A stretch of 37,486 bases of DNA, taken from IMG/VR virus record IMGVR_UViG_3300029309_000117, positions 1-37,486 of that record; one strand, written 5' to 3'. Source of the DNA: a virus. Below are positions 4,403-19,692 of the stretch, piece by piece. Within the stretch, counting starts at the first letter, position 1. The number at the start of each line of letters is the position of its first letter. The translations under genes were made by a program, and so were the position numbers. The notes under the pieces were generated by a model. That model searched no databases, was not told the DNA's origin, and was given only the letters and a program-made list of their open reading frames with translations.

Positions 4403-4855
4403 TTAAAGATATAAGTAACCAGTAAATCCGCCATCATTGCCTGCACGTTGTAAAACTGTTTCTGTCTGGGTAAGGATGTTATACCTTACGCCTTTCGCGG
4501 GGCTACTCCAAGCTGCGGCCTTGAAAACATCGCCTGTGTTCTTATCAATGAAAGCGTGAACACTTGCGGCAACATAACCCGCAGGGGCGGCGTTGATTCT
4601 GCCAAATTGTGCATCGTCTTTGTATTCCATAACAACAACTTTCAAATATCTTTTGCCGATGATGAAAGTGAAATAATCAGGATGATCTTCTGGCTTATAG
4701 TTGCCGTTTTCATCTAAATAAAGATCGCTGTAGTTTCCATCTTCTTTATCAAAACGAATCTTTTTCATCCATCCCGCTCTAGCTTCTGTAAGAGTTTCGC
4801 AAAGCTGTTGAGCTAACTTTTGAACTTGTTCTGTTTGTGTTGTTATAGTTGTCAT
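4403..4855 (-). CDS. Conserved phage protein of unknown function, 150 aa
   Basis: A 150-residue protein. The N-terminal helix (residues 1-25) precedes a predicted alpha/beta domain with GKRYLKVVVMEY (about 67-78) and the conserved-looking VHAFIDKNTGDVFKAAAWSS (about 99-118) leading to GVRYNIL. I recognise 'HAF.D..TGDV.K...W..PAKGVR.N' from many unrelated phages, where it remains uncharacterised. It is a single-gene transcript with its own consensus promoter and SD-less leader (4856-4925) and its own terminator, so it is independent of the structural operon although embedded in it. Confidence 0.75.
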   Translation of the reverse strand: MTTITTQTEQVQKLAQQLCETLTEARAGWMKKIRFDKEDGNYSDLYLDENGNYKPEDHPDYFTFIIGKRYLKVVVMEYKDDAQFGRINAAPAGYVAASVHAFIDKNTGDVFKAAAWSSPAKGVRYNILTQTETVLQRAGNDGGFTGYLYL

Positions 4856-4925
4856 TTGTTTAGTTGGTTTGTTTAGTTGGTTTGTTTAACAATCTTATTA
4901 TAATAAAATTAAAAGGGGTTGTCAA
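4856..4925 (-). promoter_or_regulatory. Consensus promoter with SD-less A/C-rich leader (copy 6)
   Basis: The minus strand has TTGACA (4925-4920), a 17-bp spacer and TATAAT (4902-4897). A leader follows in which CAAACCAACTAAA occurs twice in tandem immediately before the ATG at 4855. No Shine-Dalgarno sequence is present. The tandem unit makes this leader about 14 bases longer than copies 2, 3 and 5. Confidence 0.85.
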
Positions 4926-4929
4926 GCCC

Positions 4930-5289
4930 CTAGAAATTGTAATCGTGAAACTTGCGCCATCCTTGGTTAATAACTGTGCGCCTGTTGCTTCCTTTCAAGT
5001 ACCATTCGTTGTCTTTGCCAAGATATGCTTCTTGAATAGCGCCTTTAGGATTTTCTGTGATAATCCATCTTTGCTCATTGTTGTTTGTGCAATGCGCGGC
5101 GAATCCTCCGATGATCTGTTTAGGTTTCCAAGTAGGGTCAAGCTTGGCGTTTGCTTGTTGAATCTTGATGCGCTTGCCTTTTCTTTCGATAACTGTGAAA
5201 GGGTCAACGTCTGTGTAGTAACAGATGTTCACCTGATCGCCGACCTGAAAGTCTTTGTGATCGGCGGGAACTGTGTAAGGTTTGAACAT
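4930..5289 (-). CDS. Conserved phage protein with SH3-like N-terminus, 119 aa
   Basis: A 119-residue protein. The N-terminal VGDQVNICYYTDVDPFTVIE (about 16-35) and KGKRIKIQQANAKLDP form a small beta-barrel-like segment. The C-terminal EWYLKGSNRRTV...W.KFHDYNF is an aromatic/basic end. This two-part pattern (GD.V.I.Y..D..P.TVIE...K.I.IQ ... R.W..F.DY.F) occurs in many phages as a hypothetical protein. Its ATG overlaps the stop of the 46-residue gene upstream and is preceded by GGGAGG, so it is the second gene of the promoter at 5430-5485. Confidence 0.7.
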   Translation of the reverse strand: MFKPYTVPADHKDFQVGDQVNICYYTDVDPFTVIERKGKRIKIQQANAKLDPTWKPKQIIGGFAAHCTNNNEQRWIITENPKGAIQEAYLGKDNEWYLKGSNRRTVINQGWRKFHDYNF

Positions 5290-5429
5290 TATGCAACCTC
5301 CCTTCTTTCTGCAACTGCAAGAGCCTTTTCAAGATCACCAGTTGGAAGGCCGTTTTCTTCACAGAAGTTGATAGCTTTGTAAAGAGCGGTCATTGCTTCT
5401 TTTTCGTAGAGAGTGTAAGGATTGTTCAT
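5289..5429 (-). CDS. Small helical protein, 46 aa
   Basis: An ATG at 5429 starts MNNPYTLYEKEAMTALYKAI and the gene ends in TAATG overlapping the next gene. It is predicted wholly helical and acidic (CEENGLPTGDLEKALAVAER). It is the leading gene of a two-gene transcript driven by the consensus promoter just upstream and has no Shine-Dalgarno site, in contrast to its downstream partner. I do not recognise the family. Confidence 0.7.
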   Translation of the reverse strand: MNNPYTLYEKEAMTALYKAINFCEENGLPTGDLEKALAVAERREVA

Positions 5430-5485
5430 TTGGTTTGATTGGTTTCGTACAATTTTATTATAATAAGATTAATTATATTTGTCAA
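5430..5485 (-). promoter_or_regulatory. Consensus promoter with SD-less A/C-rich leader (copy 5)
   Basis: The minus strand has TTGACA (5485-5480), a 17-bp spacer, TATAAT (5462-5457), then a leader ending GAAACCAATCAAACCAA-ATG. The distance from the first base of the -10 box to the ATG is 33 bases, the same as in copies 2 and 3 on the plus strand. Confidence 0.88.
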
Positions 5486-5486
5486 G

Positions 5487-7628
5487 TCACCGCTTTTTCT
5501 TATCTGTCCATTTAGTGAACAAACTGTCGGGTTGATCAGCCTTTGCCAAGAAGTTTCCATATAAATCATTATTCAATATTTTCAAACCATCTTTCTTTGT
5601 ATAAGTAGCGACCTTTATTGCTTCGCCTGTTTTGTTCATATCGTAAAGTTCAAAGTCATCAAAAACATTTGCCCTGATAGCCTGCGGAACTACTTTTGAA
5701 ACTTCCCTATGAACATTTCGAACATAAGTAGGCGGAACCAATCGCTTTGTTTTTATATATCTTTGATAGTTTCTTTCAAGTGCTGTTGCAATTTCCGCTG
5801 TCGCATATTTAGCTCTTACTGTCATTCCTCTGTCAGTCATCATTTTAATTTTGCCTGATAGACTTTTCAGACTTCCGTCACCAGTTCCATCGAGCATCGT
5901 ATGATAACGCCTTTGGGCGCACTCCCTCATTAATCGTTTACTGATCCAACTTGATTCCTCATGAACATATCCCGCCGCCGCTTCTGCTATCTTTCCGCCC
6001 TTTGCCTGCATTGCTTTAAATTCTGGTAAACGTTTTTTAATTTCATCAGAATCAATAACAACAGTTCCTTTTCTTAATGGTGACTTTTTCAACATGATTG
6101 ATTTACCTGAAGCTGATCCGCCGCCTGTCATATAAAAAATTGGATTCTTTTGTGCTTTTGGATTATTTTCTGCAATTATGTCTTCAACTATTTGATCGTG
6201 TAATTTCTGACGTTCAGGCGTCCACTTTGTAAGGTTTGATGGCTCCGCCTTCTTTGCAAGAGATCCATCAGAATATCTTTGCCATGTATAAGGTGCGCTT
6301 TTTCTTTCTCTTACAACATCAGGAACAATTTTAATTTTATTTGCATTTTTTCCATAAGCTGCCTGAAGTTGCGCCAAAGTTTTTTCAGAACCATCAATCG
6401 AAGCAAATTTTCTAATAGCCTGATCGCCGCCAAATTTTTTAGATAATCTATCAAAAAATCTAACTTTACTTGCGCCAAGTGCTTTTGCTTTTACAGCGGG
6501 CGATTGTTTAGCAAGCCAAGTTCCATAGCTTTCGCCTGCGGGTACCAAACCGCTTTCTGATGGCCTGAATCCTCTACGTCTGGGCGCTTCTATCTTACGG
6601 CCAAAAACGCGGCTTAAATTCTCATAATCTATTTCGGCAACTGTTCTTGATCGACAATTAAAATGCTGTGGCGGCTCCGGCCCTTTTCCATATTCAAAAA
6701 CCTGTTGATCTAACAAACGACAACGGGAACTGGTTCTGCTGTCCAAGGTCGCCAAGTATCTATATTTTTTGGTTGCATCTGGGTTTGCTTTGTAAACCTG
6801 TTGCGCTGCGACATTGCTTACTTGATTTAAAGAAGTTCTGACAATAGTCATTACTTGATGATTAGCCGCTTTTGTAGCGTTACCGCCTGCCGCTGCAATT
6901 TGTCTTACATTGCCTTTTGAATTAAACCTTAATGAACCTATTAATCTGGATCTAATTTGTTTTGTCGTATCGCCTGCTAATAATCCATCGCGGATTTCAC
7001 GCCCTAATTTTTCAGCACTTTTATTTGTAATTCCGCGAAAAGATTTTCTGATTGATTCGCCATTTGGCAATTCTATTAATTCACCTTCTTTTGCAGTTAA
7101 AGAAAATTTAACGCCTGCCCCGCCTGCAATAGTATTCAATGAGTCGCTTAATATCTGAACATTTAATTGTGAAGCGCTTGTATTAACAACAGCCTTTGCA
7201 AATGCGGGTGTAACCTCGACAGTTCTTATTGATGATCTAATGCCTGCGGGTAATGCTTTTTCTAATTGATCCGTTGCAAACTCTTTTTGTAATTTTGCTA
7301 CACCATCTGCAACTAACTGCATATTTTTTGTCGATTTAACATCCCATTTTTTCAAACTTTCTTTTGTCTGAACTAACAAAGAACGTAAACGCGCAGCGGT
7401 ATATTTAGGCTGATTAGCTCTTGGAAGGCGTTCTATGGCTTCTAATTTATCTACTGCCCTGATTATTATTCGATTATAAGATTGAACGATTTCACGCGAT
7501 ATTTTATTAGAAAATCTATTTAAATCTAAACTATTACGAAAATATTCTTCTGGTATTAATTCAGGGTAAGGGATAGATGCCCCAAGCTTGGAAACATCAG
7601 ATGGAACACGTATTGGCGTTTGTGTCAT
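5487..7628 (-). CDS. Head morphogenesis protein (Mu F/SPP1 gp7-like) fused to a zeta-toxin-like kinase
   Basis: A 713-residue fusion. Residues 1-345 are the minor head protein: a long helical part, then a Mu F-like segment with TIVRTSLNQ (261-269), ATLDSRTSSRCRLLDQQVF (293-311) and HFNCRS (322-327). These proteins enter the capsid and bind portal or DNA. Residues about 495-690 look like a zeta-toxin/UDP-GlcNAc-kinase P-loop fold: Walker A GGGSASGKS (502-510), VIDSDEIKKRLPEF (524-537), VHEESS (555-560), DGTGDGS (580-586) and ERNYQRY (618-624). The motifs typical of the family are present, so activity is plausible. No epsilon-like antitoxin lies next to it. Its start overlaps the portal stop (TAATG). 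The kinase domain may be delivered with the virion or may be a packaging ATP/phosphate enzyme; neither is shown here. Confidence 0.82.
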   Translation of the reverse strand: MTQTPIRVPSDVSKLGASIPYPELIPEEYFRNSLDLNRFSNKISREIVQSYNRIIIRAVDKLEAIERLPRANQPKYTAARLRSLLVQTKESLKKWDVKSTKNMQLVADGVAKLQKEFATDQLEKALPAGIRSSIRTVEVTPAFAKAVVNTSASQLNVQILSDSLNTIAGGAGVKFSLTAKEGELIELPNGESIRKSFRGITNKSAEKLGREIRDGLLAGDTTKQIRSRLIGSLRFNSKGNVRQIAAAGGNATKAANHQVMTIVRTSLNQVSNVAAQQVYKANPDATKKYRYLATLDSRTSSRCRLLDQQVFEYGKGPEPPQHFNCRSRTVAEIDYENLSRVFGRKIEAPRRRGFRPSESGLVPAGESYGTWLAKQSPAVKAKALGASKVRFFDRLSKKFGGDQAIRKFASIDGSEKTLAQLQAAYGKNANKIKIVPDVVRERKSAPYTWQRYSDGSLAKKAEPSNLTKWTPERQKLHDQIVEDIIAENNPKAQKNPIFYMTGGGSASGKSIMLKKSPLRKGTVVIDSDEIKKRLPEFKAMQAKGGKIAEAAAGYVHEESSWISKRLMRECAQRRYHTMLDGTGDGSLKSLSGKIKMMTDRGMTVRAKYATAEIATALERNYQRYIKTKRLVPPTYVRNVHREVSKVVPQAIRANVFDDFELYDMNKTGEAIKVATYTKKDGLKILNNDLYGNFLAKADQPDSLFTKWTDKKKR

Positions 7629-9055
7629 TAATCCTCGTCATCTTCTGGATCTTCTACTGGTTCATCTGGTTCAGCTTCGGGCGTTGGTTCATCTGTTTCG
7701 ATCATGTCGCCTTTTTGTGTTGATTCGATTTCCATATCAACATCGAAATCATCACCAAGAATTTCTCCTTCTGCCAACTGTTTTAATAATGTTTCCTGAG
7801 ATATAGCCCCAGAACTCCAAAGACCTTGCATTGCCTGTATTTCTTGCGGTGCTAATTTTTGACCTAAGAAATCACGATTAACAAAGGCGTTTCCAATTTC
7901 TGAAATATTTAAATAGTTAGCATGAAAAACAAGACAATTATCAATCATATCTTGTAATTGTTGAGCAACTATTTTTAAAGTTGAATCGCCTTGACTTCTT
8001 TGTATTTCCTGTGATTGTGCTGTTTCTGCGACAAGTTTCTGTCCAAGGATTGCAGCTAAAGCAAGCGTGTTTATTTGATCTTCAATATTTTTTATTCTGT
8101 CGCGTTGATATTGAAAAGATTGACCTTTTATTTCTACAAACTCAGCCCTTGCACCTTCTGGAAAGGCAATCGCTTCACCCGGACCGGCGCTTACTTCTTC
8201 GGATGCCTGCGGAAAACCAAATAAACAAAGCAAAGGAACAGAAGATATTCTTAGCTGATTATCAAAGTCAGATGTTTTTTGATAATGCAATAAATTTAAC
8301 TCTGCTATGTCTTGCATCGGTGGGCGTGATTCTAAAAAGCCAACCTTGTTTGAATATGCAATTGCGAAAGGTATGTAATCAAGAGAAGTTGTTCCTTCAT
8401 CAACTTTGACATATTTTCCCTGACGGCTTTTCCTGTGAACTTCAAAGGCTCCCGGCGTTAATAGTCGAACCTGTTCAACTTCTTTCTGTCCATAATCGCC
8501 GTCTGGTTCTGTGACTCTTTCAAGAAGTCTTAATTGTGTTAATTTCTGTTGACCATCAATCGCTTCTGTCCTCCATCCAAGTATCTCGCGCGGACTGAAT
8601 GTAAGCCAATAGGGGCGCCCTTGTGAATTTGATGGTGCATCAACAAGAACGCCGACATGACCATATCTCAACATTATTTTTGCTGTCTCATAAGTCCAAC
8701 TGGTAAGATCGTTGCCCATAAGGTCAACATCGAACAAATCTTCCGTAACTCGTTCTGATACTTCGTTTAGTCGAACAGGTTTACGTGTAAGCATACCCGC
8801 AAGCAATCTTTCAATTCTGACGTACAAAGGCGCGAGAACGCTTGTCGAGAGCCGATTGTCATATGATTCATCTTGCTCCCGGGGCATCTGGGGGAGGTAT
8901 TTTCGATGTCTTTTTCTTATCCCATAAGTGCCGGAAATTAAATCTTCAATCAATATCCAGTTCGGCTCCATATTTACATAAGCGTTGCTTGGGTCTTGTA
9001 CTTCTACGGCTTTACTTGATCTCTCTCTGTCGTAATGATTAAAAGATGAATACAC
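7628..9055 (-). CDS. Portal protein (DUF4055-like)
   Basis: A 475-residue protein starting at GTG (AGGGG seven bases upstream). An ATG at 8971 is a possible alternative. The sequence contains the pattern I associate with DUF4055 phage portals: a helical N-terminus, YLPQMPREQDESYDNRL (about 53-69), LLAGMLTRKPVRL (about 84-96), YGHVGVLVDAPS and a C-terminal helical stem region. The last 35 residues are very acidic (EPTPEAEPDEPVEDPEDDED). It lies between large terminase and the head morphogenesis protein, as expected for the ring through which DNA enters. Confidence 0.85.
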   Translation of the reverse strand: MYSSFNHYDRERSSKAVEVQDPSNAYVNMEPNWILIEDLISGTYGIRKRHRKYLPQMPREQDESYDNRLSTSVLAPLYVRIERLLAGMLTRKPVRLNEVSERVTEDLFDVDLMGNDLTSWTYETAKIMLRYGHVGVLVDAPSNSQGRPYWLTFSPREILGWRTEAIDGQQKLTQLRLLERVTEPDGDYGQKEVEQVRLLTPGAFEVHRKSRQGKYVKVDEGTTSLDYIPFAIAYSNKVGFLESRPPMQDIAELNLLHYQKTSDFDNQLRISSVPLLCLFGFPQASEEVSAGPGEAIAFPEGARAEFVEIKGQSFQYQRDRIKNIEDQINTLALAAILGQKLVAETAQSQEIQRSQGDSTLKIVAQQLQDMIDNCLVFHANYLNISEIGNAFVNRDFLGQKLAPQEIQAMQGLWSSGAISQETLLKQLAEGEILGDDFDVDMEIESTQKGDMIETDEPTPEAEPDEPVEDPEDDED

Positions 9056-9092
9056 GTTTGACCCCTACTTTAATTTAATAGTAATACACTTT

Positions 9093-10433
9093 TTAATATA
9101 TTCTAATGCCTGTTTTGCGCCCTGCCCCCAAATGTAAGGGATTGAAGCAACGCCAACAAAGATAACGAACACAATCAGAGAAATGATCTAGCCCTGTTTT
9201 TTCTGGTTCGCCCGCTTCTGTATAACTTTGAAGTTCAAGCGATTCAATAACATTTTTACAACGCGGATGTATAAACAGATTAACTTCTTCTTTACCATTG
9301 CATAACAAGCGCTGAACATTATTAACGCTGTCCTTAATGGATGGATTAGACGCGCCCGATTGATTGGATATTCCGTAACTTTCAAGAATCTGGATGTCGG
9401 TTTTCGTAGCGTTTGTTGATCTTGCTCCGCCTGAAGAATCAGGATATCCGTAAAGTCTGTTGTGTACAAACCTTGATTTGATTTCTTTTGCCAGTTGGTC
9501 GGTGTCATGTGCGCGAATCTCATCAAAAATAAAAAGCTTGTTATCTTTAATCACCGCGCAAACACAGGACATCTTGCCAATATTAAAGTCGATTCCAAGT
9601 CTTATAATTTCGTCTGAATAGTTTGGGATGTCTGTTGTTATATGTTTTTCTCTGTCGAAGCGATCGAAGACGGCGCCAGTTGTTAAAGATATGAACTGAC
9701 CCTCAAGGTAAGCCTTAAGTAAATTCGGGTCAAAGTTCAATTTCATTCTATCAATAAAGTCAGCGGGCAAATGTGGATTGTCTGTTGTTTTCATTCTTAT
9801 TAACTTTCTATCTGTTTTATTTTTGGCTTCATCAGAGCCAAATGTTTCATAAAACCATTTATAACCTTCAGGAGTGGACGCCGCCGCGAATTGACGAACC
9901 TTACCGGCGCGAAGACGTCCAAGTATTTTAGGAAAGGCTCTATCACAAATAGATTTTGCAACTGTGTCTATTTCGTCCGCACAGCACCAAGCCGCGTTAA
10001 TTCCTATAATCCTTTGCCATGATTCAAAACTTCGACACATTATGCGGGTGTCACCTTTTGGAAGATGAAGAATGAAATCGGGAAGAGGTGAAGATTTAAA
10101 ACTATAAGGAATTTCGTAATTCAATAAAAATTCTTCAAATTCAGCAACAAATAAATCTCTTACCAGCGGTTGCGTAGGTTCTAAAACTATTCCAGTAAAG
10201 CCTTGATTTAATACAGAAAGGTAGAAACATTTTGCTAATAATGATCTTGTTTTGCCTGATCCATATCCTGCACATAGTCCTAAAATTTCAGTTTTTGTAT
10301 CGTTTACAAAATTAAGCTGTCCTATATGTAAATCTTTTTTTATTCTTTGTAAGGTTAAATTTATATTTATAGAATCTGTAAAATTTTCAGGATGTAAAAC
10401 GTAACCTTGCTTTACATCAGTTAAAAAACTCAT
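9093..10433 (-). CDS. terL: Terminase large subunit
   Basis: A 446-residue packaging motor. The ATPase has a Walker A variant AGYGSGKT (55-62), a Walker B ending in DE (CCADEID, catalytic E at about 154) and a coupling motif AAASTPEG (about 183-190). The nuclease domain begins at LGIDFNIG (Asp at about 282) with a second Asp at YPDSSG (about 332). I place the start at the ATG at 10433, which overlaps the small-subunit stop as ATGA. An upstream in-frame TTG is less likely. It cuts concatemeric DNA and pumps it through the portal encoded next. Confidence 0.93.
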   Translation of the reverse strand: MSFLTDVKQGYVLHPENFTDSININLTLQRIKKDLHIGQLNFVNDTKTEILGLCAGYGSGKTRSLLAKCFYLSVLNQGFTGIVLEPTQPLVRDLFVAEFEEFLLNYEIPYSFKSSPLPDFILHLPKGDTRIMCRSFESWQRIIGINAAWCCADEIDTVAKSICDRAFPKILGRLRAGKVRQFAAASTPEGYKWFYETFGSDEAKNKTDRKLIRMKTTDNPHLPADFIDRMKLNFDPNLLKAYLEGQFISLTTGAVFDRFDREKHITTDIPNYSDEIIRLGIDFNIGKMSCVCAVIKDNKLFIFDEIRAHDTDQLAKEIKSRFVHNRLYGYPDSSGGARSTNATKTDIQILESYGISNQSGASNPSIKDSVNNVQRLLCNGKEEVNLFIHPRCKNVIESLELQSYTEAGEPEKTGLDHFSDCVRYLCWRCFNPLHLGAGRKTGIRIY

Positions 10434-10750
10434 GAACAAAGATGTGCTAATTTCGCGGCTGTATTTATAGCACCTAAAGCAATATGATATTGCCCAGACC
10501 TTCTAGCTTCCATTTGTAAGGTGCTACATTGCGCCAAAAGATCAGCAATCATTTGAGGTCGTTCTATGTCCCAATCCCTCTTCAACTCTGCTCTGGCTAT
10601 GTTTAAATACTTATCTACAGTTCTTTCTCCAACCCCCCAATTTTCGGCGGCATAGCGAACACAGTCTGATCTACGGCCACCATTTGCAATAATTCGAGCA
10701 AATTTCTGTGACCTTACGACAGTTTCAGCTTGAGTTCCTTTTTTTGCCAT
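10430..10750 (-). CDS. terS: Terminase small subunit
   Basis: A 106-residue helical protein directly upstream of the large terminase and overlapping it by 4 bases. Residues about 20-50 (NGGRRSDCVRYAAENWGVGE, RTVDKYLNIAR) form a helix-turn-helix of the kind used by small terminases to bind packaging sites. The remaining helices (MIADLLAQCSTLQMEARR) would drive oligomerisation. It follows the Mom-like gene after 19 bases, so terminase and DNA modification appear to share a transcript. Confidence 0.83.
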   Translation of the reverse strand: MAKKGTQAETVVRSQKFARIIANGGRRSDCVRYAAENWGVGERTVDKYLNIARAELKRDWDIERPQMIADLLAQCSTLQMEARRSGQYHIALGAINTAAKLAHLCS

Positions 10751-10769
10751 ATTTATATTATTACCACAA

Positions 10770-11441
10770 TTATTGGAGCGTCTGGGTAGGTGCTGCCCCT
10801 CCGATCTTGTCAGGGGTACTGACTAAATCCTGCTTCAGACGCTTAGGGTAAGGCAAAGCCTTCTTAATAAGAGTATCACGCAATTTTTGATCTAGAGGAA
10901 ATAAATAACGATATTTCTGAGAACCTTGAACAATTTCTAATCCTTTATCTATAAATTTTAGATGTGATCCATGCGTTTTTCTGAAAGCTCTGCCGTGCCA
11001 TCTTTTCCCTTTAAATAAATATTCGTCAGCAGCATTAGATTTTCCATCATAAATCCAATTAGTTGCTTGATAAATACCGCCATGATGATTTTGTTCTATA
11101 TCTGCAAAAGAAACAACTAATTTTATTTTAGGATTAGATTTTTTTAAAAATTTCAAAGCAATAGAAATTATTTTTGAAACAGGAGTTTTATGTATTTTCA
11201 AGGCAATTCTTACAAGCTCGCAAGATTCTGTTTGATCGCATCCATAAGGCTTACCTAATGACTTATTTGCACCTCTACCAAAAAGAACAACACCAATAAA
11301 TTTATTTTCCTCCCAAACTCCTATCTTAACTAGTTTACCTACAGGCAAACATTTACTGTAATGCCAATTAAGACAAGCAAATTTTGTCGCTTCATAAGTA
11401 GCCCAATCAAGTTTTAAACTAAATTTGTTTTGTAAATTCAT
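10770..11441 (-). CDS. Mom-like DNA-modification acyltransferase (copy 1)
   Basis: Phage Mu Mom is a GNAT-fold enzyme that converts adenine to a methylcarbamoyl form and protects DNA from restriction. Here 223 residues contain NWHYSKCLPVGK (about 25-36), GVWEENKFIGVVLFGRGA (41-58), CELVRIAL (74-81) and the hallmark SFADIEQNHHGGIYQATNWI (111-130) followed by YDG. The C-terminus has KYRYLFPLD and PYPKR. I choose the ATG at 11441, since the longer frame would start at TTG (11468). The gene overlaps the ParB-like gene by 23 bases. Plausible substrates (adenine, other acyl donor) are inferred from the family only. Confidence 0.75.
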   Translation of the reverse strand: MNLQNKFSLKLDWATYEATKFACLNWHYSKCLPVGKLVKIGVWEENKFIGVVLFGRGANKSLGKPYGCDQTESCELVRIALKIHKTPVSKIISIALKFLKKSNPKIKLVVSFADIEQNHHGGIYQATNWIYDGKSNAADEYLFKGKRWHGRAFRKTHGSHLKFIDKGLEIVQGSQKYRYLFPLDQKLRDTLIKKALPYPKRLKQDLVSTPDKIGGAAPTQTLQ

Positions 11442-11931
11442 ATCCACATTTAGGGCATTGACAGTCAATTTCTTTTTTATCTAAACGATCTAATTGTCCT
11501 TGATCGTCAACTGATCCAGTATCAAACTCTGGAGATTTAACTCCTAACTTTTCTAAATCTTCACTATCAAAGAAATCGTTTAAATCATGCTCTTTTGATA
11601 ATTGTTCAAGCATATCTATATCCCACACTGCAAGATCACCAGTTCTGTTATCTGCTATTGCTAATCCTACTTTTTGATCTTCTGTGAGGTTTGATCTTTT
11701 AACAGCAATTATTTCATCGCCATTTGCTTCTATTATTTTTAAGTTTTTAATCCCTGCGGCTTTAGCCCCTGCGATTGTTCCATTGCCTGCAAGAATACGA
11801 TTGTTTTCATCAATTACGATTGATCTTGCCGCACCATATTGTTCTAAACTTTGTTTTATAAGCTTTGCAGATCGGTCAGTACGTTTACGAGCATTTTTAG
11901 GATCGTTGTATAAATCGTTTATTGAAGTCAT
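11419..11931 (-). CDS. ParB/sulfiredoxin-like protein with C-terminal zinc ribbon
   Basis: A 170-residue protein. Residues 1-60 look like a ParB N-terminal domain: DLYNDPKNARKRTDRSAKLI, GAARSIVIDENNRILAGNGT and IAGAKAAGI, where GNGTIAGAK replaces the usual GERR-type box. DNRTGDLAVWDIDML follows. The C-terminus has CQCPKCGYEF, three cysteines of a probable short zinc ribbon. Phage proteins of this kind often precede DNA methylases. Here it precedes and overlaps a Mom-like gene, so it may be a nuclease or a CTP-binding partner in DNA modification. It is the first gene of the minus-strand packaging block. Confidence 0.7.
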   Translation of the reverse strand: MTSINDLYNDPKNARKRTDRSAKLIKQSLEQYGAARSIVIDENNRILAGNGTIAGAKAAGIKNLKIIEANGDEIIAVKRSNLTEDQKVGLAIADNRTGDLAVWDIDMLEQLSKEHDLNDFFDSEDLEKLGVKSPEFDTGSVDDQGQLDRLDKKEIDCQCPKCGYEFTKQI

Positions 11932-11960
11932 ATTTTAAATATATATCATGAAATATGGAG

Positions 11961-12017
11961 TTGACATCTTAAAATAATTATATTATAATTAAATTGTAAA
12001 CAAACCAATTAAACCAA
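11961..12017 (+). promoter_or_regulatory. Consensus promoter with SD-less A/C-rich leader (copy 1)
   Basis: TTGACA (11961-11966), a 17-bp spacer and TATAAT (11984-11989), then a leader TTGTAAACAAACCAATTAAA that runs to the ATG at 12018 without a Shine-Dalgarno site. It lies in the 86-base divergent spacer at the head of the plus-strand early block. I see no equally good promoter for the minus-strand ParB-like gene in the same spacer. Confidence 0.88.
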
Positions 12018-12188
12018 ATGATTAAACTAGGAACTCAAGTTCAACACAAACTACACGATGACGTTAATGGCGATGTAGTTCAACTAAACAGAAAAAGCAA
12101 TACCGCTACTGTTAAATTTTGGAATTACCAAGATGAATTAATGCTTGCGAGTGTATATTTATCTGATTTAGAGGAGGTTGCACAATGA
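12018..12188 (+). CDS. Small SH3/KOW-like protein, 56 aa
   Basis: MIKLGTQVQHKLHDDVNGDV, then VQLNRKSNTATVKFWN and an acidic end VYLSDLEEVAQ. The alternating pattern (G..V.H......G.VV......TA.VKF) suggests a small beta barrel of the SH3 or KOW type, like the protein at 15078-15296. It is the first gene of the early transcript, has an SD-less leader, and its stop overlaps the next start (ATGA). Function unknown. Confidence 0.6.
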   Translation: MIKLGTQVQHKLHDDVNGDVVQLNRKSNTATVKFWNYQDELMLASVYLSDLEEVAQ

Positions 12189-12316
12189 GCAATTTTCTAA
12201 TGATGCTTGCAGCTTCAGGAGTATTTTATCTGGGGTTCAGCGATGCTTTAACTCAAATGAGTGAATATGATTGCCGCGTTGGGAATGTACAAGCGGCTTG
12301 CGAGGTGTTGAAGTGA
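12185..12316 (+). CDS. Small membrane-type protein, 43 aa
   Basis: An ATG at 12185 has GAGGAGG seven bases upstream (inside the preceding gene). It encodes MSNFLMMLAASGVFYLGFSD and a tail with two Cys (DCRVGNVQAACEVLK). The hydrophobic first 18 residues could be a membrane anchor or signal segment. The stop overlaps the next gene's GTG start. Unknown family. Confidence 0.6.
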   Translation: MSNFLMMLAASGVFYLGFSDALTQMSEYDCRVGNVQAACEVLK

Positions 12317-13041
12317 ATAAAAGATATGACTATAAAGATCAAGAATTTAATTTAAAGATGAGAGTTAAGTTCTTAGAAAAGAAACTAAGGGAACCCGATC
12401 ATGATGTTGACAAGTATCAAGAATGGGAAAGTAATCTCGAAATGGTTACTGATGAACTTACAAAACTACAAGTTAAGAAGTTTAAATATTTTCTTGGCAA
12501 GTGGGTTCATAACTTTAAAGAACAGAATCAATTAATTAATGTAATTGATTGTATGTTTGTTGCCCTTGAAAAAACAGATCAAAAAGATGTTGCGATGAAA
12601 TGGTATATGAGAGTGACAGACCCGAAGGAAACAAGATGCCTTGAAAAGCTATTGGAATATAAAACGGCGGAGGTCAATATGTGGAAAGCAAATATCAAAA
12701 AGATTAAGCAACAAAAAAATGAAGCAAAACAACTTTTAAAAAAACAATGTAAAGAATCTATTAAGCAAAGTAAGGAAATGATGTCGCGTAATTACGATAC
12801 ATTGTTAAGACAACACGTTTTAGAATTAAATCATTATAAAAATAAACATGACGAAAACCAAAATATTCTTGAAGCTATGAAGGAACGAATACATACATTA
12901 GAAAGAGAAAAATATGACTTACAAGAAAAATTAAAAAAGATAGATGCGATGCAAGAAGAGATTGATAAAAGAGCAGAAGTGTATAAAGAAGGCTTGATTA
13001 AATCAGGCTTGAAAAACATTTTACAAAAGGAGGATTCATGA
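12313..13041 (+). CDS. Coiled-coil protein, 242 aa
   Basis: The start is the GTG at 12313, overlapping the previous stop and preceded by GAGG, rather than upstream in-frame codons that would lie inside the previous gene. The N-terminus (NKRYDYKDQEFNLKMRVKFL) and a mid-part with VHNFKEQNQLINVIDCMFVA are helical. Residues from about 120 to 235 form a long Lys/Glu/Gln coiled coil. No enzyme motif is visible. It is the first large product of the early block, with its 3' end coupled to the next gene (ATGA). Function unknown. Confidence 0.75.
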   Translation: MNKRYDYKDQEFNLKMRVKFLEKKLREPDHDVDKYQEWESNLEMVTDELTKLQVKKFKYFLGKWVHNFKEQNQLINVIDCMFVALEKTDQKDVAMKWYMRVTDPKETRCLEKLLEYKTAEVNMWKANIKKIKQQKNEAKQLLKKQCKESIKQSKEMMSRNYDTLLRQHVLELNHYKNKHDENQNILEAMKERIHTLEREKYDLQEKLKKIDAMQEEIDKRAEVYKEGLIKSGLKNILQKEDS

Positions 13042-13406
13042 AAGATCAGGAACAGTTAAAAGCAATTAATCAATTATTGGCTTTGGTTATTGGTGGGCGT
13101 ATTGCAAGACAAACTGAACATTTAAAAAGCGCTCCTTTGAATCGCGTTAATCACGCTGAAAAAATAATTGCTGATAAGGAGTTACAGGAAGCTACAAGAG
13201 ACTTGCAAGATGGTTATGAAGATGCGTCAAAAAAAATTTCACAGATACAAAGAAAACTGGAAAGTTTAGGAAGTTTAAAAATATTAGCGGAAATGGTTGA
13301 AGGAAATATAAGGGATGCGGCGCTTGCTGCTATAACAGAAGGTGCAAATTCTGATGGATATTTGTTTGAAGAATATAACGATTGGGAGAATAAAAATGTT
13401 CACTAA
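13038..13406 (+). CDS. Helical protein of unknown function, 122 aa
   Basis: The ATG overlaps the previous stop and has AAGGAGG upstream. It is predicted mostly helical: QLKAINQLLALVIGGRIARQ near the N-terminus, then a charged helix (EATRDLQDGYEDASKKISQI) and an acidic C-terminus (EEYNDWENKNVH). No recognised domain. It is part of the four-gene early transcript from the promoter at 11961. Confidence 0.7.
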   Translation: MKDQEQLKAINQLLALVIGGRIARQTEHLKSAPLNRVNHAEKIIADKELQEATRDLQDGYEDASKKISQIQRKLESLGSLKILAEMVEGNIRDAALAAITEGANSDGYLFEEYNDWENKNVH

Positions 13407-13602
13407 AGCTCAACAAAAAATTTTAAAAGAATGTCTTACTTATGGAATACAAAGGCAAGAAAAACTTCTTCGACATATTCTCAGAGATGAACCACAAACA
13501 CCTGATGAAGTAAAAGGATTTGTTGAACTAAAAAGACACTTAGAAAGAAGAATTGAAGCGCATGAAAAATTAATAAAAAAATTAAATAAAGAATTTAATT
13601 GA
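13396..13602 (+). CDS. Small helical protein, 68 aa
   Basis: I start it at the ATG at 13396 (GGGAG eight bases upstream), overlapping the previous gene by 11 bases, because the longer frame from 13342 lies inside that gene. The protein MFTKAQQKILKECLTYGIQR ... RRIEAHEKLIKKLNKEFN is a helical hairpin. Its TGA stop forms part of the next promoter's TTGACA. The first 13 bases of the gene belong to a 26-base sequence repeated at 14133-14158. Confidence 0.65.
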   Translation: MFTKAQQKILKECLTYGIQRQEKLLRHILRDEPQTPDEVKGFVELKRHLERRIEAHEKLIKKLNKEFN

Positions 13603-13654
13603 CAATACTAATCAATTATATTATAATTAATTTGTAAGCAAACCAATCAAACAA
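13599..13654 (+). promoter_or_regulatory. Consensus promoter with SD-less A/C-rich leader (copy 2)
   Basis: TTGACA (13599-13604), a 17-bp spacer, TATAAT (13622-13627) and a leader TTGTAAGCAAACCAATCAAAC before the ATG at 13655, with 33 bases from -10 start to ATG. The -35 box overlaps the stop codon of the preceding gene. It lies exactly 200 bases upstream of copy 3. Confidence 0.9.
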
Positions 13655-13795
13655 ATGTTATTTAATCGTTCAGCTTTAATAGCTTTAATTAATGAAAACC
13701 CACAACTTTGGGAAGTAGAATTTGATGGAGATATAAAAAAAATTAAGTCAATAAAACCGATGAATCCTAAACATATAGTAAATGAGCAGGATTGA
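13655..13795 (+). CDS. Small protein, 46 aa, single-gene cassette
   Basis: MLFNRSALIALINENPQLWE then VEFDGDIKKIKSIKPM and a polar end. It is enclosed by two copies of the promoter cassette (13599 and 13799), so it appears to be expressed with its own promoter. No domain recognised. The absence of a ribosome site is shared with the other cassette-led genes. Confidence 0.6.
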   Translation: MLFNRSALIALINENPQLWEVEFDGDIKKIKSIKPMNPKHIVNEQD

Positions 13796-13798
13796 TAG

Positions 13799-13854
13799 TT
13801 GACAATATTATTTAATTATATTATAATTAATTTGTAAGCAAACCAAACAAACCA
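13799..13854 (+). promoter_or_regulatory. Consensus promoter with SD-less A/C-rich leader (copy 3)
   Basis: TTGACA (13799-13804), a 17-bp spacer, TATAAT (13822-13827), leader TTGTAAGCAAACCAAACAAA then CCA-ATG at 13855. It begins 3 bases after the previous stop. The -10 to ATG distance is 33 bases. Confidence 0.9.
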
Positions 13855-14133
13855 ATGCAAATCGAAACAGACTTAACAAAAGAACAAACCCATTACTTGA
13901 TTGATCTTTTAAATAAAGATTATGTTCAATTAAGAAAATTCAAAAAACAACTTATCAAAAATACACCTCCTGAAATTGTGGCTGAAGATGTAAAAGTTTT
14001 GGTTGATAAATGTCGAACCGCAATGATGGAAAATGAAACCATATGCCACAAATTAGACGATCATTTAACAGACATTAGCAGAGGTTATAAGTTAAACATT
14101 GATAAAGAATGGAAAAACAAATGCTTAAAATAA
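13855..14133 (+). CDS. Helical protein of unknown function, 92 aa
   Basis: MQIETDLTKEQTHYLIDLLN, then a basic helix YVQLRKFKKQLIKNTPPEIV and CRTAMMENETICHKLDDHL. It looks like a three-helix protein related in style to the 68-residue product at 13396. Unknown family. Led by promoter copy 3. Confidence 0.65.
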   Translation: MQIETDLTKEQTHYLIDLLNKDYVQLRKFKKQLIKNTPPEIVAEDVKVLVDKCRTAMMENETICHKLDDHLTDISRGYKLNIDKEWKNKCLK

Positions 14134-14158
14134 TAAGAATGTTCACTAAAACTTAACA
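14133..14158 (+). repeat. 26-base imperfect repeat of 13390-13415
   Basis: ATAAGAATGTTCACTAAAAC then TTAACA matches the start region of the 13396 gene (ATAAAAATGTTCACTAAAGC then TCAACA) at 23 of 26 positions. Here the ATG would give only MFTKT before a stop, so it looks like a remnant of a duplicated gene start, or a shared leader element for the gene at 14160. Confidence 0.5.
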
Positions 14159-14159
14159 G

Positions 14160-14402
14160 ATGATTATTGAAACCCCTTCTTTGCTTTCCCCTTGCGGTTC
14201 ATATCAGGTTGACTTCTTCCCAATAAAAGGTCAGCCTGATCTTTTCTTTCGTATAGGAACATTTAATGGGATAACAGAATTTAAAGAAACAGTAAATAAA
14301 GCTGAAATGTTAAGAGATATAGAACGCAAAAGATTTAGATATTTTAAAACAATTCAAATAAATAGAATCCCGCAAATTTATGAAACAAAAGTATTCAATT
14401 AA
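14160..14402 (+). CDS. Unknown protein upstream of Mom-like copy 2, 80 aa
   Basis: MIIETPSLLSPCGSYQVDFF then PIKGQPDLFFRIGTFNGITE, a beta-rich N-terminal half, and a charged helix (KAEMLRDIERKRFRYFKTIQ). It overlaps the following Mom-like gene by 23 bases in another frame, suggesting coupled translation. No clear ribosome site. A role together with the modification enzyme is possible by position only. Confidence 0.55.
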   Translation: MIIETPSLLSPCGSYQVDFFPIKGQPDLFFRIGTFNGITEFKETVNKAEMLRDIERKRFRYFKTIQINRIPQIYETKVFN

Positions 14403-15081
14403 AAGTGTTAAAAATTCAGAATGTAATGAATGGTTTTTAAAAAAACACTATGCGCGAAGATTGCCGAATATAAATTGCGCTTTTGGGTTATATGACAATT
14501 TAAATTTATTACAGGGTGTTTGTAGTTTTGGGCGGCCGATGAGCCACACGTTAATATCTGGCGCAGTAAATGGATTATATCAAGATAATTTTCTTGAATT
14601 GAATAGACTAGTTATTAATGAGGGATTAGAAAAAAATGTTCTTAGCTTTTTTGTTTCTGGTTGCTTGAATAAGTTGCCAAAGCCGTTAATTGTTGTTTCT
14701 TATGCCGATACTTCGCAGGGGCATCATGGTTTTATATATCAGGCGACAAATTGGATATATACAGGATTAAGCGCAAAGTTTAAAGATTACGCTGTAAAAG
14801 GTCTTGAACATATGCACCATAGTTCAATTGAAGATAGTGTTGGCCGTTATGACGAAAACAAAAATATTAATAAACATGAGTTACTAAGAAAAAAATACGG
14901 CGATAGATTGTACATGAAAGAACGCCCGCGAAAACATAGATATTTTTATTTTTTAGGTAATAAAAAAGAAAGACAGATTATGAATAAAAACTTGCAATAT
15001 AAAGTAAAACCATACCCGAAAGGCAACAACAAAAGATACGATGCAAGTTATGTTCCGAGCGTTCAAGGTGTGTTGTTTTAA
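14380..15081 (+). CDS. Mom-like DNA-modification acyltransferase (copy 2)
   Basis: A 233-residue protein with LKKHYARRLPNINCAFGLYD (about 20-39), ELNRLVIN (73-80) and the family hallmark SYADTSQGHHGFIYQATNWI (107-126) followed by YTG. The C-terminal KHRYFYFLG and KPYPK match copy 1 (KYRYLFPLD ... PYPK). Compared with copy 1 it lacks the GVWE.NKFIGVVLFGRGA block, having QGVCSFGRPMSH instead, and carries an extra basic stretch (RKKYGDRLYMKERPRKHRY). It is probably a paralogue with a different acyl donor or timing. It is on the opposite strand, in the early block, and ends tail to tail with the 15078-15296 gene. Confidence 0.72.
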   Translation: MKQKYSIKSVKNSECNEWFLKKHYARRLPNINCAFGLYDNLNLLQGVCSFGRPMSHTLISGAVNGLYQDNFLELNRLVINEGLEKNVLSFFVSGCLNKLPKPLIVVSYADTSQGHHGFIYQATNWIYTGLSAKFKDYAVKGLEHMHHSSIEDSVGRYDENKNINKHELLRKKYGDRLYMKERPRKHRYFYFLGNKKERQIMNKNLQYKVKPYPKGNNKRYDASYVPSVQGVLF

Positions 15082-15296
15082 GTCAAAGGCTTTAATGTAT
15101 GCTGCGCGTGTTCTGATGTTCTTTTATCATCCCATTGAACCCTGTAATATTGATGCTTGAAACCAAGGCTGTTTTGCTTTGTGAATACTTCTATTATTTT
15201 TCCGCTTATGTAACGTTTGGGAATGTTTGAAGAAGTGAAAGAAACTTTTTTGACGCGTTGGCCTAGTTGATAACGTTGGCCTACAAGTTCTGGCAT
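15078..15296 (-). CDS. Small SH3/KOW-like protein, 72 aa
   Basis: MPELVGQRYQLGQRVKKVSF, then RYISGKIIEVFTKQNSLGFK and HQYYRVQWDDKRTSEHAQHT, ending LKPLT. The G..V..V.........G.I..V.........YRVQWDD pattern is that of a small beta-barrel (SH3/Tudor/KOW-like) protein often found in phages. It is the only minus-strand gene in the early block, convergent with Mom-like copy 2 (4-base overlap) and divergent from the 15417 gene. Confidence 0.65.
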   Translation of the reverse strand: MPELVGQRYQLGQRVKKVSFTSSNIPKRYISGKIIEVFTKQNSLGFKHQYYRVQWDDKRTSEHAQHTLKPLT

Positions 15297-15341
15297 ATTG
15301 AAGAGATAAGGATTTAATTAGTTTAGCAAATAATAAAAATT

Positions 15342-15356
15342 AATCTTAGTAAGATT
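15342..15356. promoter_or_regulatory. Perfect 7-1-7 palindrome abutting a -35 box
   Basis: AATCTTAGTAAGATT is an exact inverted repeat ending one base before TTGACA of promoter copy 4. It has the geometry of an operator for a dimeric regulator. It sits in the divergent spacer between the genes at 15296 (minus) and 15417 (plus), so it could control both. Confidence 0.45.
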
Positions 15357-15357
15357 G

Positions 15358-15416
15358 TTGACAATATAATTTAATTTTATTATAATAAGAATGTAAGCGA
15401 AACAAACCAAACCAAA
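15358..15416 (+). promoter_or_regulatory. Consensus promoter with SD-less A/C-rich leader (copy 4)
   Basis: TTGACA (15358-15363), a 17-bp spacer, TATAAT (15381-15386), leader ATGTAAGCGAAACAAACCAA then ACCAAA-ATG. The -10 to ATG distance is 36 bases, slightly longer than copies 2, 3 and 5. Confidence 0.88.
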
Positions 15417-15659
15417 ATGAACACTTTCTTCAACACATACTTCAACGAAAAACAGCTTGATAATCAAGTTTATGAAGTTGCCGCTCCTAACGGAACAATG
15501 AATTTGATCGAGACTGAAATGGTTGTTGCCAAGATCAAGAGAACACAAGGCGATGAAGCTAAAAAGATCGAAGGCATCATTAGACAGATTGATTGCTTAA
15601 ACGGCGACATTCATCATTTCTTGAGACATCTTGCTCAAGCAATGGCTATTGATTTTTAA
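15417..15659 (+). CDS. Conserved small phage protein, 80 aa
   Basis: MNTFFNTYFNEKQLDNQVYE, then MNLIETEMVVAKIKRTQGDE and IDCLNGDIHHFLRHLAQAMA. The pattern (E.V...I......E...I...IR.ID..NGDI.HFL.HLA.A.A) is one I recognise as a widely distributed phage hypothetical protein. It is the leading gene of a long early transcript. The stop is followed by AAGGAGG, the ribosome site of the next gene. Confidence 0.65.
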   Translation: MNTFFNTYFNEKQLDNQVYEVAAPNGTMNLIETEMVVAKIKRTQGDEAKKIEGIIRQIDCLNGDIHHFLRHLAQAMAIDF

Positions 15660-17396: not shown

Positions 17397-17509
17397 GTTA
17401 CAAAACAGAACAAACAGAAAACGCCAAAAAAAGAATTGAAGAATTAAAAATTTTAATTACTTTTTGGCAAAAAACAAAAAAAACAAATGAAAACAAAATC
17501 ATTAATTAA
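17393..17509 (+). CDS. Tiny Lys-rich ORF, 38 aa
   Basis: An ATG at 17393 overlaps the previous stop (ATGA) and encodes MSYKTEQTENAKKRIEELKI then LITFWQKTKKTNENKIIN. It overlaps the exonuclease gene by 23 bases. The coupling geometry is like that of its neighbours, but the size and bias towards A-rich codons leave it uncertain. Confidence 0.4.
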   Translation: MSYKTEQTENAKKRIEELKILITFWQKTKKTNENKIIN

Positions 17510-18116
17510 ACCGCTTCCAATAGGACGCATCGAAAAAACCCATAAATATATTTGGGAACCAACAGGCGAAATTCTTGCTTATTCGACAACTCAGGTTTGT
17601 AATACAAAAACACCTGAACAATTAGAAAATATTGAAAGGTGGCGTCATAAATGGGAACCGCGCGGCGTTACGGCGCATTATTGTTTGCAGCAAAAAATGT
17701 TAGGTAATGATAAGCCTGACATGGGCGAATATAAAGATTGGATTGAACCGCTTTTAAGTTTGGATTTTTGGGAAAACTTTGAACCTTGGGGCGTTGAGTT
17801 TATGCTTTGCGATCTTGAAAAATCTGTTGGCGGTCAACTTGATCTTCTCGGTTATGACAATAAAGAAAAAAAGATTATGCTTATTGACTTGAAAACGCAG
17901 GGAAACAAATACGCAAAGCCATATTCAACAAACGCGCAACTTGGAAGCTATGTAGATGCTTTAAAAATACATAGGGATATAAAACCAGATGTATGTAAAA
18001 CAATCTGGGCAAAGCCGAATAAATGCGTTATTGGCGAAGATCAAGAAGTTGAGCTTTGTACAAGGGAATGGCGTCAAGCTTGGGAAAAATTTCAAAGCAA
18101 ACAGGAGACTTTTTAA
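17487..18116 (+). CDS. PD-(D/E)XK exonuclease (RecB/lambda Exo-like)
   Basis: A 209-residue nuclease. The motifs are in order: AHYCLQQ (residues 63-69, conserved His), VEFML (103-107, Glu), GGQLDLLGY (115-123, catalytic Asp119), IDLKTQ (133-138, Asp134/Lys136) and NAQLGSYVDAL (149-159, Gln151). This is the standard set for phage recombination exonucleases that resect double-strand ends to give 3' tails. The single-strand annealing protein two genes later is its expected partner. An A-rich stretch precedes the ATG and no strong ribosome site is visible. Confidence 0.82.
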   Translation: MKTKSLIKPLPIGRIEKTHKYIWEPTGEILAYSTTQVCNTKTPEQLENIERWRHKWEPRGVTAHYCLQQKMLGNDKPDMGEYKDWIEPLLSLDFWENFEPWGVEFMLCDLEKSVGGQLDLLGYDNKEKKIMLIDLKTQGNKYAKPYSTNAQLGSYVDALKIHRDIKPDVCKTIWAKPNKCVIGEDQEVELCTREWRQAWEKFQSKQETF

Positions 18117-18485
18117 ATGACAAAAAAAACTAAAAACAAACCAGAATTTCCAAAGCATCAAATTTGGTTTGACGAAGAATTAAAAAAATATCTTATGGTT
18201 TTTGATGGTTTAGATGGTGTTCCAAGACCTTTTGAACTTCAATTAAGTGAAATAGGTGCTGAAACAATTAAAACTGCATTTGTTAATACTCCAATTCATT
18301 TAGCAATGGGTAATTTTTGGGGTTATAAAGATTATCCAGAAGATGAAGTTTTAAAAAATTGTGAGCCATTTGAAAAAGGCAGAAATCACATCTACTTAGC
18401 AAGTTATGATTTATCGGCTTTAACTGCACTTGCAAAAGTGCTTTGCGATTATAGATGTTGGGAAGATAATCAAAATGCTTTTTAA
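18117..18485 (+). CDS. Unknown protein between exonuclease and RusA, 122 aa
   Basis: MTKKTKNKPEFPKHQIWFDE, then KKYLMVFDGLDGVPRPFELQ and a mid-section HLAMGNFWGYKDYPEDEVLK. It starts at the exonuclease stop (TAAATG) and its own stop overlaps the RusA start (TAATG). The compact placement inside the recombination cassette suggests an accessory role. I do not recognise the fold. Confidence 0.65.
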   Translation: MTKKTKNKPEFPKHQIWFDEELKKYLMVFDGLDGVPRPFELQLSEIGAETIKTAFVNTPIHLAMGNFWGYKDYPEDEVLKNCEPFEKGRNHIYLASYDLSALTALAKVLCDYRCWEDNQNAF

Positions 18486-18931
18486 TGAAAGAACTTGAAT
18501 TTCGTGTTGTAGGTTTACCCGCGCCGCAGGGTTCAAAAACTTTAACGCGATATGGGGCGTTAATGGAATCAAGTAAAAAAGTAAAACCTTGGAGACAAGA
18601 TATAATCCACGCGGCGCTTGAGGCATATTCTGGCAAGCCTTTCGATGAACCTGTGTGTGTTTCTGTTGAATTTATATTTCCACGCCCTAAAGGGCATTAC
18701 GGAACAGGACGAAATAGTCAAAAGTTAAAAGACAGCGCCCCTAGATATTGCACAAGTAAAACTAACGGAGATATTGATAAAGTTGTAAGATCAACATTAG
18801 ATGCTTTAAGTTTGACTTCTGGCGGATGTATTTTGACTGATGATTCTTTGGTTGTTTGTTTACAAGCTTTAAAACGATATGCGGATTTTTATGAACTGGC
18901 AGGGGCAAAAATAAATATAAAGACTTTTTGA
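18485..18931 (+). CDS. rusA: RusA-family Holliday junction resolvase
   Basis: A 148-residue protein opening with LPAPQGSKT (11-19), typical of RusA. The catalytic block is GDIDKVVRSTLDALS (95-109, Asp96, Asp98, Lys99, Asp106) and TDDSLV (118-123). RusA cleaves four-way junctions symmetrically and is common in phage recombination modules. Length and spacing of acidic residues agree with the family. It follows the unknown 122-residue gene with a 1-base overlap. Confidence 0.88.
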   Translation: MKELEFRVVGLPAPQGSKTLTRYGALMESSKKVKPWRQDIIHAALEAYSGKPFDEPVCVSVEFIFPRPKGHYGTGRNSQKLKDSAPRYCTSKTNGDIDKVVRSTLDALSLTSGGCILTDDSLVVCLQALKRYADFYELAGAKINIKTF

Positions 18932-18978: not shown

Positions 18979-19692
18979 ATGTCAAACCAACCTGAACCAA
19001 CTGAATCAATACAAATTCCAAATCTGGGCGGCCTTATAACAGAAGATGATCTTTACTATAAAGGCAAAGTTCCTTATTGTTCATGGGCTAAAACAGCGCA
19101 AAGAATAAGAGAAAATGCGCCTAATTGGTTTTTTAATTTAGAACCTGACCCAAATGGGCAACTTGTTTGGATGGCTCCTGATAATACAGGTTATTTAATG
19201 GGCTATTTTCAAAACATAGAAACAGGAATAAAACTGCCTTTTTATCCTTACGCGATAACAAATTATTCAAATAAATCTATTAAATATGATCAAATCTCAT
19301 CAACTGATGTCTTAAAAGCGCATCGTAGATGTCTTTGCGCCTGCGCTTGTTTTTCCTTCGGTGATGCTTTTGAACTATGGGCGGGTCTTGAAGTAAAAGA
19401 ATCTAAAGAAGAGGAAGCTTTACCAGAAGAAAAAAAAGGCGTTTCACATACACCAGAAAAACCAGACGAAAAACCAGACGAAAATTATTTATTGCCTAAA
19501 GAAATTAACCCTGATGCAAAAGAATTAATTGTAACTGAATTAAGAAAATCACCCCATAAAGATCAAATTTTAAAAGAATTTAAAAGTCATTTCAAATTGC
19601 AAGTTAAAGAGGTTACACCCGCAAATATTACATTATCTGAACATGGAAGATTTTTACGCTTAACTATGGAAAAACTAAAAGAAAAAAGTTAA
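18979..19692 (+). CDS. Single-strand annealing protein (Sak3/DUF1071-like)
   Basis: A 237-residue protein. KGKVPYCSWAKTAQRIRENA (28-47) corresponds to the family's 'YLSWA.AW' start. FYPYAITNYSNKSI (88-101) and STDVLKAHRRCLCACACFSF (108-127) with ELWAG match the DUF1071/Sak3 core '..D....A..RCL..A...FG...LYAGE'. An acidic linker (about 140-175) leads to a separate C-terminal domain (ELRKSPHKDQILKEFKSHFK ... LSEHGRFLRL). These proteins anneal the 3' tails made by the exonuclease, so 17487 and 18979 form a two-component recombinase with RusA as resolvase. Confidence 0.78.
   Translation: MSNQPEPTESIQIPNLGGLITEDDLYYKGKVPYCSWAKTAQRIRENAPNWFFNLEPDPNGQLVWMAPDNTGYLMGYFQNIETGIKLPFYPYAITNYSNKSIKYDQISSTDVLKAHRRCLCACACFSFGDAFELWAGLEVKESKEEEALPEEKKGVSHTPEKPDEKPDENYLLPKEINPDAKELIVTELRKSPHKDQILKEFKSHFKLQVKEVTPANITLSEHGRFLRLTMEKLKEKS

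Follow-up and report, generated by a model that had tools for sequence, protein, structure and literature searches.

In T4-like myoviruses, the promoter-early stem-loop cassettes known as PeSLs are reportedly strong sigma-70-like promoters, in part with terminator stem-loops, that recur between small accessory genes and allow these to be shuffled by recombination. The morons of lambdoid phages are extra genes that carry their own promoter, and sometimes a terminator, among the structural genes. In the account of Arbiol 2010 and Comeau 2014, as cited in PMC4503421, the PeSL is a composite promoter-terminator that mediates gene shuffling. Cluster K mycobacteriophages carry a conserved repeat, the SAS, right before the start codons of many genes; this repeat includes AGGAG, with which it is able to base-pair to 16S rRNA, and the ESAS has inverted repeats in addition and remains linked to its gene family (PMC3203893). 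With respect to translation, starts that are independent of a Shine-Dalgarno (SD) sequence rely on a local lack of structure, and no conserved sequence motif was reported for them (PMC3121790). For the cyanobacterial rbcS, ribosomal protein S1 is associated with SD-independent initiation (Mutsuda and Sugiura 2006, cited in PMC6847405).

Here we describe a promoter-leader unit in a 37,486-base virus record, the whole of which was analyzed and is referred to as the window. The window encodes lambda-like head and tail genes, and its portal protein is 56-62% identical to those of Synechococcus phage S-H1, cyanophage KBS-S-2A, and the Prochlorococcus phages P-HS2/MED4-184 and MED4-117. The host of this phage is likely a marine picocyanobacterium. 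As with PeSLs, a strong sigma-70-like promoter is repeated between accessory genes (six in the window, 246 in relatives), and gene exchange is bordered at the cassettes, which is seen here as site-by-cargo mixing and as a crossover product. The systems differ in that PeSLs are at home in T4-like myoviruses, whereas the present phage is a siphovirus with lambda-like tail proteins and a cyanosiphovirus-type portal. In addition, a stem-loop is found at only about a quarter of the present copies, and the present unit continues through a conserved SD-less leader up to the ATG. That the units work like PeSLs is well supported by these comparisons, and we do not claim that they are PeSLs. The unit is also, like the SAS, a conserved repeat at many starts in one phage group, but it lacks the AGGAG core, its leader being almost G-free in the last 15 nt, and it has a promoter and stays with the site while the genes change. 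The accessory genes resemble morons in carrying their own promoter, and sometimes a terminator, among structural genes; in contrast to morons, these phages use one unit at many sites, with exchanged cargo and a standardized 5′ UTR. Finally, the starts share with SD-independent initiation the lack of an SD, an open A-rich context and a likely host group rich in SD-less genes, but the present starts have a conserved motif across hundreds of copies, whereas PMC3121790 reports none. Our main reading, to which we assign a probability of roughly 0.7, is that the units are PeSL-like regulatory cassettes of a siphovirus clade that additionally carry a conserved SD-independent initiation leader, and that genes are swapped at the unit.

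The unit in the window and in related phages

A pattern scan of the window for TTGACA-N16..18-TATAAT returned exactly six matches in 37,486 bases, with a 17-bp spacer in all six. They lie at 4925(-), 5485(-), 11961(+), 13599(+), 13799(+) and 15358(+), precisely where a previous sequence-only reading had placed them. Dinucleotide shuffles contained TTGACA-N17-TATAAT 0.04 times on average, and six was reached in 0 of 100 shuffles. By itself, AAACCAA is unremarkable (27 in the window versus 14.7 expected), and it is the combination of promoter and leader, rather than AAACCAA alone, that is the remarkable feature. In each of the six copies, the leader contains AAAC(C/A)A units and runs into the ATG without an SD, as that reading had also held. 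The distance from the first base of the -10 to the ATG is 33 bases in copies 2, 4 and 5 (not 2, 3 and 5, as previously given); copy 3 has 34, copy 6 has 36 and copy 1 has 47. The number of AAACCAA-type units per leader varies from one to four, and their phase varies too, with a period of 13 nt in copy 1 and of about 9 nt in most others.

On the minus strand, the promoter of copy 1 (4897..4925) is followed by a 41-nt leader (4856..4896) that contains a duplicated AAACAAACCAACT unit and extends up to ATG 4855. The cargo behind it, c0 (4403..4855, -), encodes 150 aa and belongs to DUF7717/phrog_818 (Pfam 4e-20, phrog 2e-22). The -35 of copy 1 sits in the loop of a terminator-like hairpin (4914..4931, -), AGGGG-CTTGACAA-CCCCT and then a T-rich stretch, whose stem is kept in relatives. 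Around the -35 at one late site, the stem is kept via the different pairs AGGGG/CCCCT, AGGAGGT/ACCTCCT and AGAGGGT/ACCCTCT, a composite of which copy 1 is an instance. Among the six window copies, such a hairpin was found at copy 1 only; over a larger set, a terminator-like hairpin at most 70 bp upstream, or overlapping the -35, was found at 51 of 193 copies versus 0 in shuffles. Copy 2 (promoter 5457..5485, 27-nt leader 5430..5456, -) begins immediately past the stop of a head gene (5487-7628). It precedes the 46-aa cargo c23 (5289..5429, -), the 3′ end of which bears the SD for the c12-family gene that follows (4930-5289).

The remaining four copies, which like the first two have promoters that match the pattern exactly, are on the plus strand. 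Copy 3 (promoter 11961..11989, 28-nt leader 11990..12017) is separated from the anchor gene c5 (43 aa, 12185..12316, +) by the 56-aa cargo c16 (12018..12188, +), whose 3′ end encodes the c5 SD. In the window c5 is internal and has an SD; in other phages it comes immediately after the leader and has none. Copy 4 (promoter 13599..13627, 27-nt leader 13628..13654) and copy 5 (promoter 13799..13827, 27-nt leader 13828..13854) enclose the 46-aa cargo c21 (13655..13795, +), and copy 5 is followed by c6 (92 aa, no family; 13855..14133, +). The packing is tight, with the -35 hexamer TTGACA of copy 4 (13599-13604) including the TGA stop of the gene upstream. Copy 6 (promoter 15358..15386, 30-nt leader 15387..15416) precedes c2 (80 aa, phrog_6004; 15417..15659, +), after which come GGAGG and a gene that varies among relatives. 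Of the cargos that immediately follow a unit in the window, Pfam named one (DUF7717), and PHROGs gave only families of unknown function. The later genes at 12185, 13038, 15674 and 5289 have GGAGG-type SDs, in agreement with the sequence-only reading.

That reading had proposed a motif search in this phage and its relatives. Such a search gave about 246 distinct copies in IMG/VR relatives, almost all within a single clade of putative cyanosiphoviruses. Where the contig spans the region, the unit is usually present in relatives whose portal is at least 88% identical, in up to nine copies, and a few additional contigs have a single-copy variant. The unit is confirmed as real and widespread in one phage clade. 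It was not found in the isolate genomes S-H1, KBS-S-2A, P-HS2 and MED4-117, even allowing one mismatch; the leader pattern had no match in GTDB genomes, and a search with the window portal did not find a prophage. Sixty loci (650 kb) with a major capsid protein 76-81% identical also lack the promoter-leader unit. Because these more distant relatives are without it, an ancient shared element is unlikely.

Following the -10, the consensus of the 246 copies reads waaaTTGT..., AAAC(C/A)AA, two bases, AAAC(C/A)AA and ATG. The scan that collected these copies demanded AATT.TA[TA] ahead of the -10, so that this part of the spacer is fixed by the search itself. From the end of the -10 to the ATG, nearly all SD-less copies measure 26-30 nt, and 98-99% of the SD-less copies have TGT at positions 6-8 past the -10, which is likely the transcription start. 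In the last 15 leader positions of SD-less copies, G is at zero at many positions and at 5% at the highest. The base following AAAC is C in 216 cases, A in 195, T in 25 and G in 5.

Gene exchange at the unit

To describe how units, sites and genes combine, 189 SD-less copies with sufficient flank were clustered by upstream DNA into 45 sites and by downstream protein into 32 cargo clusters. One upstream site (n=25) bears nine unrelated cargos, and several cargos occur at many sites. Copies that share a site but not a cargo are 75-86% identical to each other upstream, and in the CDS their identity is at background, 27-35%; the high upstream value holds by construction, and what is informative is the differing cargo and the place where identity changes. 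Copies that share a cargo but not a site are at background upstream (26-32%, with a rise to 48% over the final 20 bp), whereas their units are 78-100% and their CDS 52-66% identical. The ATG is one border at which identity drops, and the other lies upstream of the -35. Within the unit, the spacer tracks the site more closely (84% vs 78%) and the 3′ leader the cargo (76% vs 87%), as expected with crossovers inside the unit. These comparisons show the unit to be the point at which homology starts and stops in gene exchange between phages.

Gene order was also compared between phages. At the copy 3 site, the unit is followed by c16, c4, c3, c25, c26, c28, c29, c30 or nothing, and then always by c5. 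In the late operon, the unit is followed by c9, c18, c14, c20, c22 or nothing, then by c12 and the next unit. The right-hand borders of the exchanged genes are either the SD-stop-ATG of the next gene or a terminator plus the next unit. For example, c16 terminates in GGAGGTTGCACAATGA before c5 and in GGAGGTTGCATAATG before c13. Its 3′ coding end (window 12170-12188; L209, L266) encodes the SD of the next gene in a site-dependent form, GCACAATGA or GCATAATG, so that a start signal marks the right border as well.

Within the window, a 33-bp block of copy 4 (13614..13646, +) is identical to 13814-13846 of copy 5 and is the putative crossover site. Two relatives, L220 and L263, have the left half of copy 4 (TTGACAATACTAATC) fused via this block to the copy 5 leader and cargo c6, and c21 is missing. 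This recombinant arrangement is exactly the product predicted for a crossover of copies 4 and 5, with gain or loss of c21 both possible. RecA has a minimal pairing segment (MEPS) of 31-34 bp, and Red-beta one of 23-27 bp (PMC3945230); the block is close to the former and longer than the latter. The window encodes a phage exonuclease (phrog_298, 4e-12; 17487..18116, +), a RusA-like Holliday junction resolvase identified by protein search (18485..18931, +), and a Sak-like (Rad52-like) single-strand annealing protein (phrog_659, 4.5e-07; 18979..19692, +). The Pfam SSAP_Sak match of the last (2e-4) is weak, at 21.3 bits just under the 22.3 cut-off, and the protein is a candidate recombinase for exchange at the unit. 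Neither an integrase nor a transposase, the kind of dedicated recombinase that marks integron-like or transposon cassettes, was found among the proteins searched, which were part of the ORFs; the general functions Sak, exonuclease and RusA were found instead. Taken at the level of sequence comparison, a role of the unit as a recombination seam is strongly supported. The mobile promoter cassette that had been suggested earlier holds in part: site-by-cargo mixing, gene order and the crossover product show an exchange of genes at the unit, which serves as a homologous seam, and not a promoter that jumps as an element.

Leader and Shine-Dalgarno sequence at gene starts

SDs were looked for within 20 nt of the start and scored by a G-containing core test. 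Among the starts of the cargo families, 157 have a leader without an SD, 50 an SD without a leader, 7 both and 2 neither, so that the SD core is missing in 157 of 164 leader starts. Six of the seven starts with both belong to a single family, whose leader includes AAAGGAAACC or a close variant; one of the two with neither is a mis-set start. The P-values (1e-16 and 1e-38) overstate the evidence because the copies share ancestry by descent. The cargo family c5 is without an SD in 8/8 first positions and has one in 23/23 internal positions, and c13 is without in 4/4 first and with in 12/12 internal positions. A given protein begins at an identical ATG in leader and SD contexts, which supports the start codons. 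Seemingly internal SD-less starts in c12, c31 and c10 were found to have their own promoter and leader and are not exceptions. Comparison across relatives thus shows leader and SD as alternatives, a gene having the leader when first and the SD when internal.

A putative translational role of the leader is supported by this exclusivity. The translation enhancer of the sequence-only reading accordingly receives comparative backing, in that leader and SD are nearly exclusive and the same gene toggles by position. A bolder proposal, to which we give somewhat less than even chances, is that the AAAC(C/A)AA repeats act as a dedicated, sequence-conserved signal for SD-independent ribosome recruitment, a universal 5′ adaptor behind which any arriving gene would be translated with no need for a ribosome-binding site from its own sequence. 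The absence of an SD is largely confounded with first position on the transcript. The mean MFE from -20 to +20 is -0.4 kcal/mol for first genes versus -2.8 kcal/mol for internal genes, and shuffled first genes give -0.66; the low folding energy at first-gene starts mostly reflects composition. A possible base pairing between CCAA and the 16S tail was set aside, as conservation is lacking at the C/A position. The leader is CAA-rich, as is the TMV omega leader, which is G-free and 68 nt long; omega differs in being eukaryotic viral and without a promoter unit, and homology is not implied. In E. coli, the omega leader raised a reporter 38-fold (PMC13205671).

Promoters with other leaders bear on the relation of AAAC to the SD. 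Ten promoter loci, essentially of one gene family, have a short leader with an SD but without AAAC, suggesting, for this family, that the promoter can do without AAAC. At 25 long-leader promoters, a hairpin is followed by AAACCAA and then an SD. Because AAACCAA lies upstream of an SD there, it is not strictly an SD replacement. Examples of these include L129:14399(-), L136:4645(-), L128:13568(+) and about 20 others, where a conserved hairpin, GAGGGTCAAACCTC and variants, precedes AAACCAA and then GGAGG; their gene type occurs in either orientation between late genes. The same promoter type is also seen at L261:2310(+), L302:2830(+) and L303:2319(+), with a long structured leader that contains TGCTCTTTAA, similar to the boxA antitermination element, and terminates in the standard AAACCAATCAAAC.

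Exchange at the unit clearly occurs, given the mixing of sites and cargos and the crossover product, and it could in principle account for the leader on its own. The unit would then be purely a recombination seam at which exchange homogenizes a functionless AAACCAA, with first genes on short 5′ UTRs needing no SD in these hosts; among cyanobacteria, infrequent use of the SD is normal (PMC5397173). We consider this unlikely, as variation in the leader is mostly between A and C with G nearly excluded, at many sites and with differing spacers, which suggests selection on composition. Moreover, AAACCAA is also retained in longer leaders, either adjoining the start or a short way upstream of the SD.

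Less probable again is that the AAACCAA array is the site of a phage or host regulator, a protein or an sRNA, that switches all cassettes jointly, similar to the role proposed for SAS/ESAS. A conserved, repeated array that each genome has several times, in every case following this one promoter, would suit such a regulator, but the number and phase of its units vary (1-4 units; 13-nt vs ~9 period), and C and A are about equal after AAAC (216 vs 195), which speaks against a fixed base-pairing target. An Rfam search of the window and four relatives matched no RNA family, and a regulator site by itself would leave the leader/SD exclusivity unexplained. Ordinary strong phage promoters before morons, repeated through recent duplication in one genome, fit the places between late genes and beside terminase but are strongly disfavored, as the unit is common to many phages, sites and cargos, and both the DNA upstream of the -35 and the CDS are unrelated between sites.

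Proposed mechanism and use

In the PeSL-like reading that we prefer, each accessory-gene cassette of a marine siphovirus clade would have the unit as its 5′ regulatory end. The host sigma-70 RNA polymerase would initiate about 7 nt past TATAAT, at the conserved TGT, and the resulting mRNA would have a G-free, unstructured 5′ UTR of 20-24 nt. On this mRNA, the ribosome would initiate at the first AUG independently of any SD contact, with the AAAC(C/A)AA repeats holding the start open and possibly being bound by S1 or the 30S subunit. During co-infection, the Sak-like annealing protein and the exonuclease may recombine two units via 20-56 bp of near identity. A gene landing behind the unit would be expressed at whichever site, because the unit brings a promoter, a leader and, at some sites, a terminator.

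Such a mechanism would allow a small phage to swap accessory genes yet keep them expressed, and would extend the PeSL idea beyond T4-like phages. A single leader recurs here across hundreds of natural settings, whereas SD-independent initiation, which is common in bacteria, has been reported to lack conserved motifs. Because the same genes occur with the leader or with an SD, ready-made pairs are at hand with which the role of the leader can be tested. For cyanobacterial expression work, the unit offers a compact promoter-leader part.

The cassette region of the window also holds one of two separate Mom-like DNA modification proteins that are encoded in this one phage (10770-11468(-) and 14380-15081(+); Pfam Mom 2e-44 and 4e-39), namely the second. 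The start of the first Mom-like gene is overlapped by a gene for a ParB-like protein (11419-11931(-); phrog_620, 2e-29).
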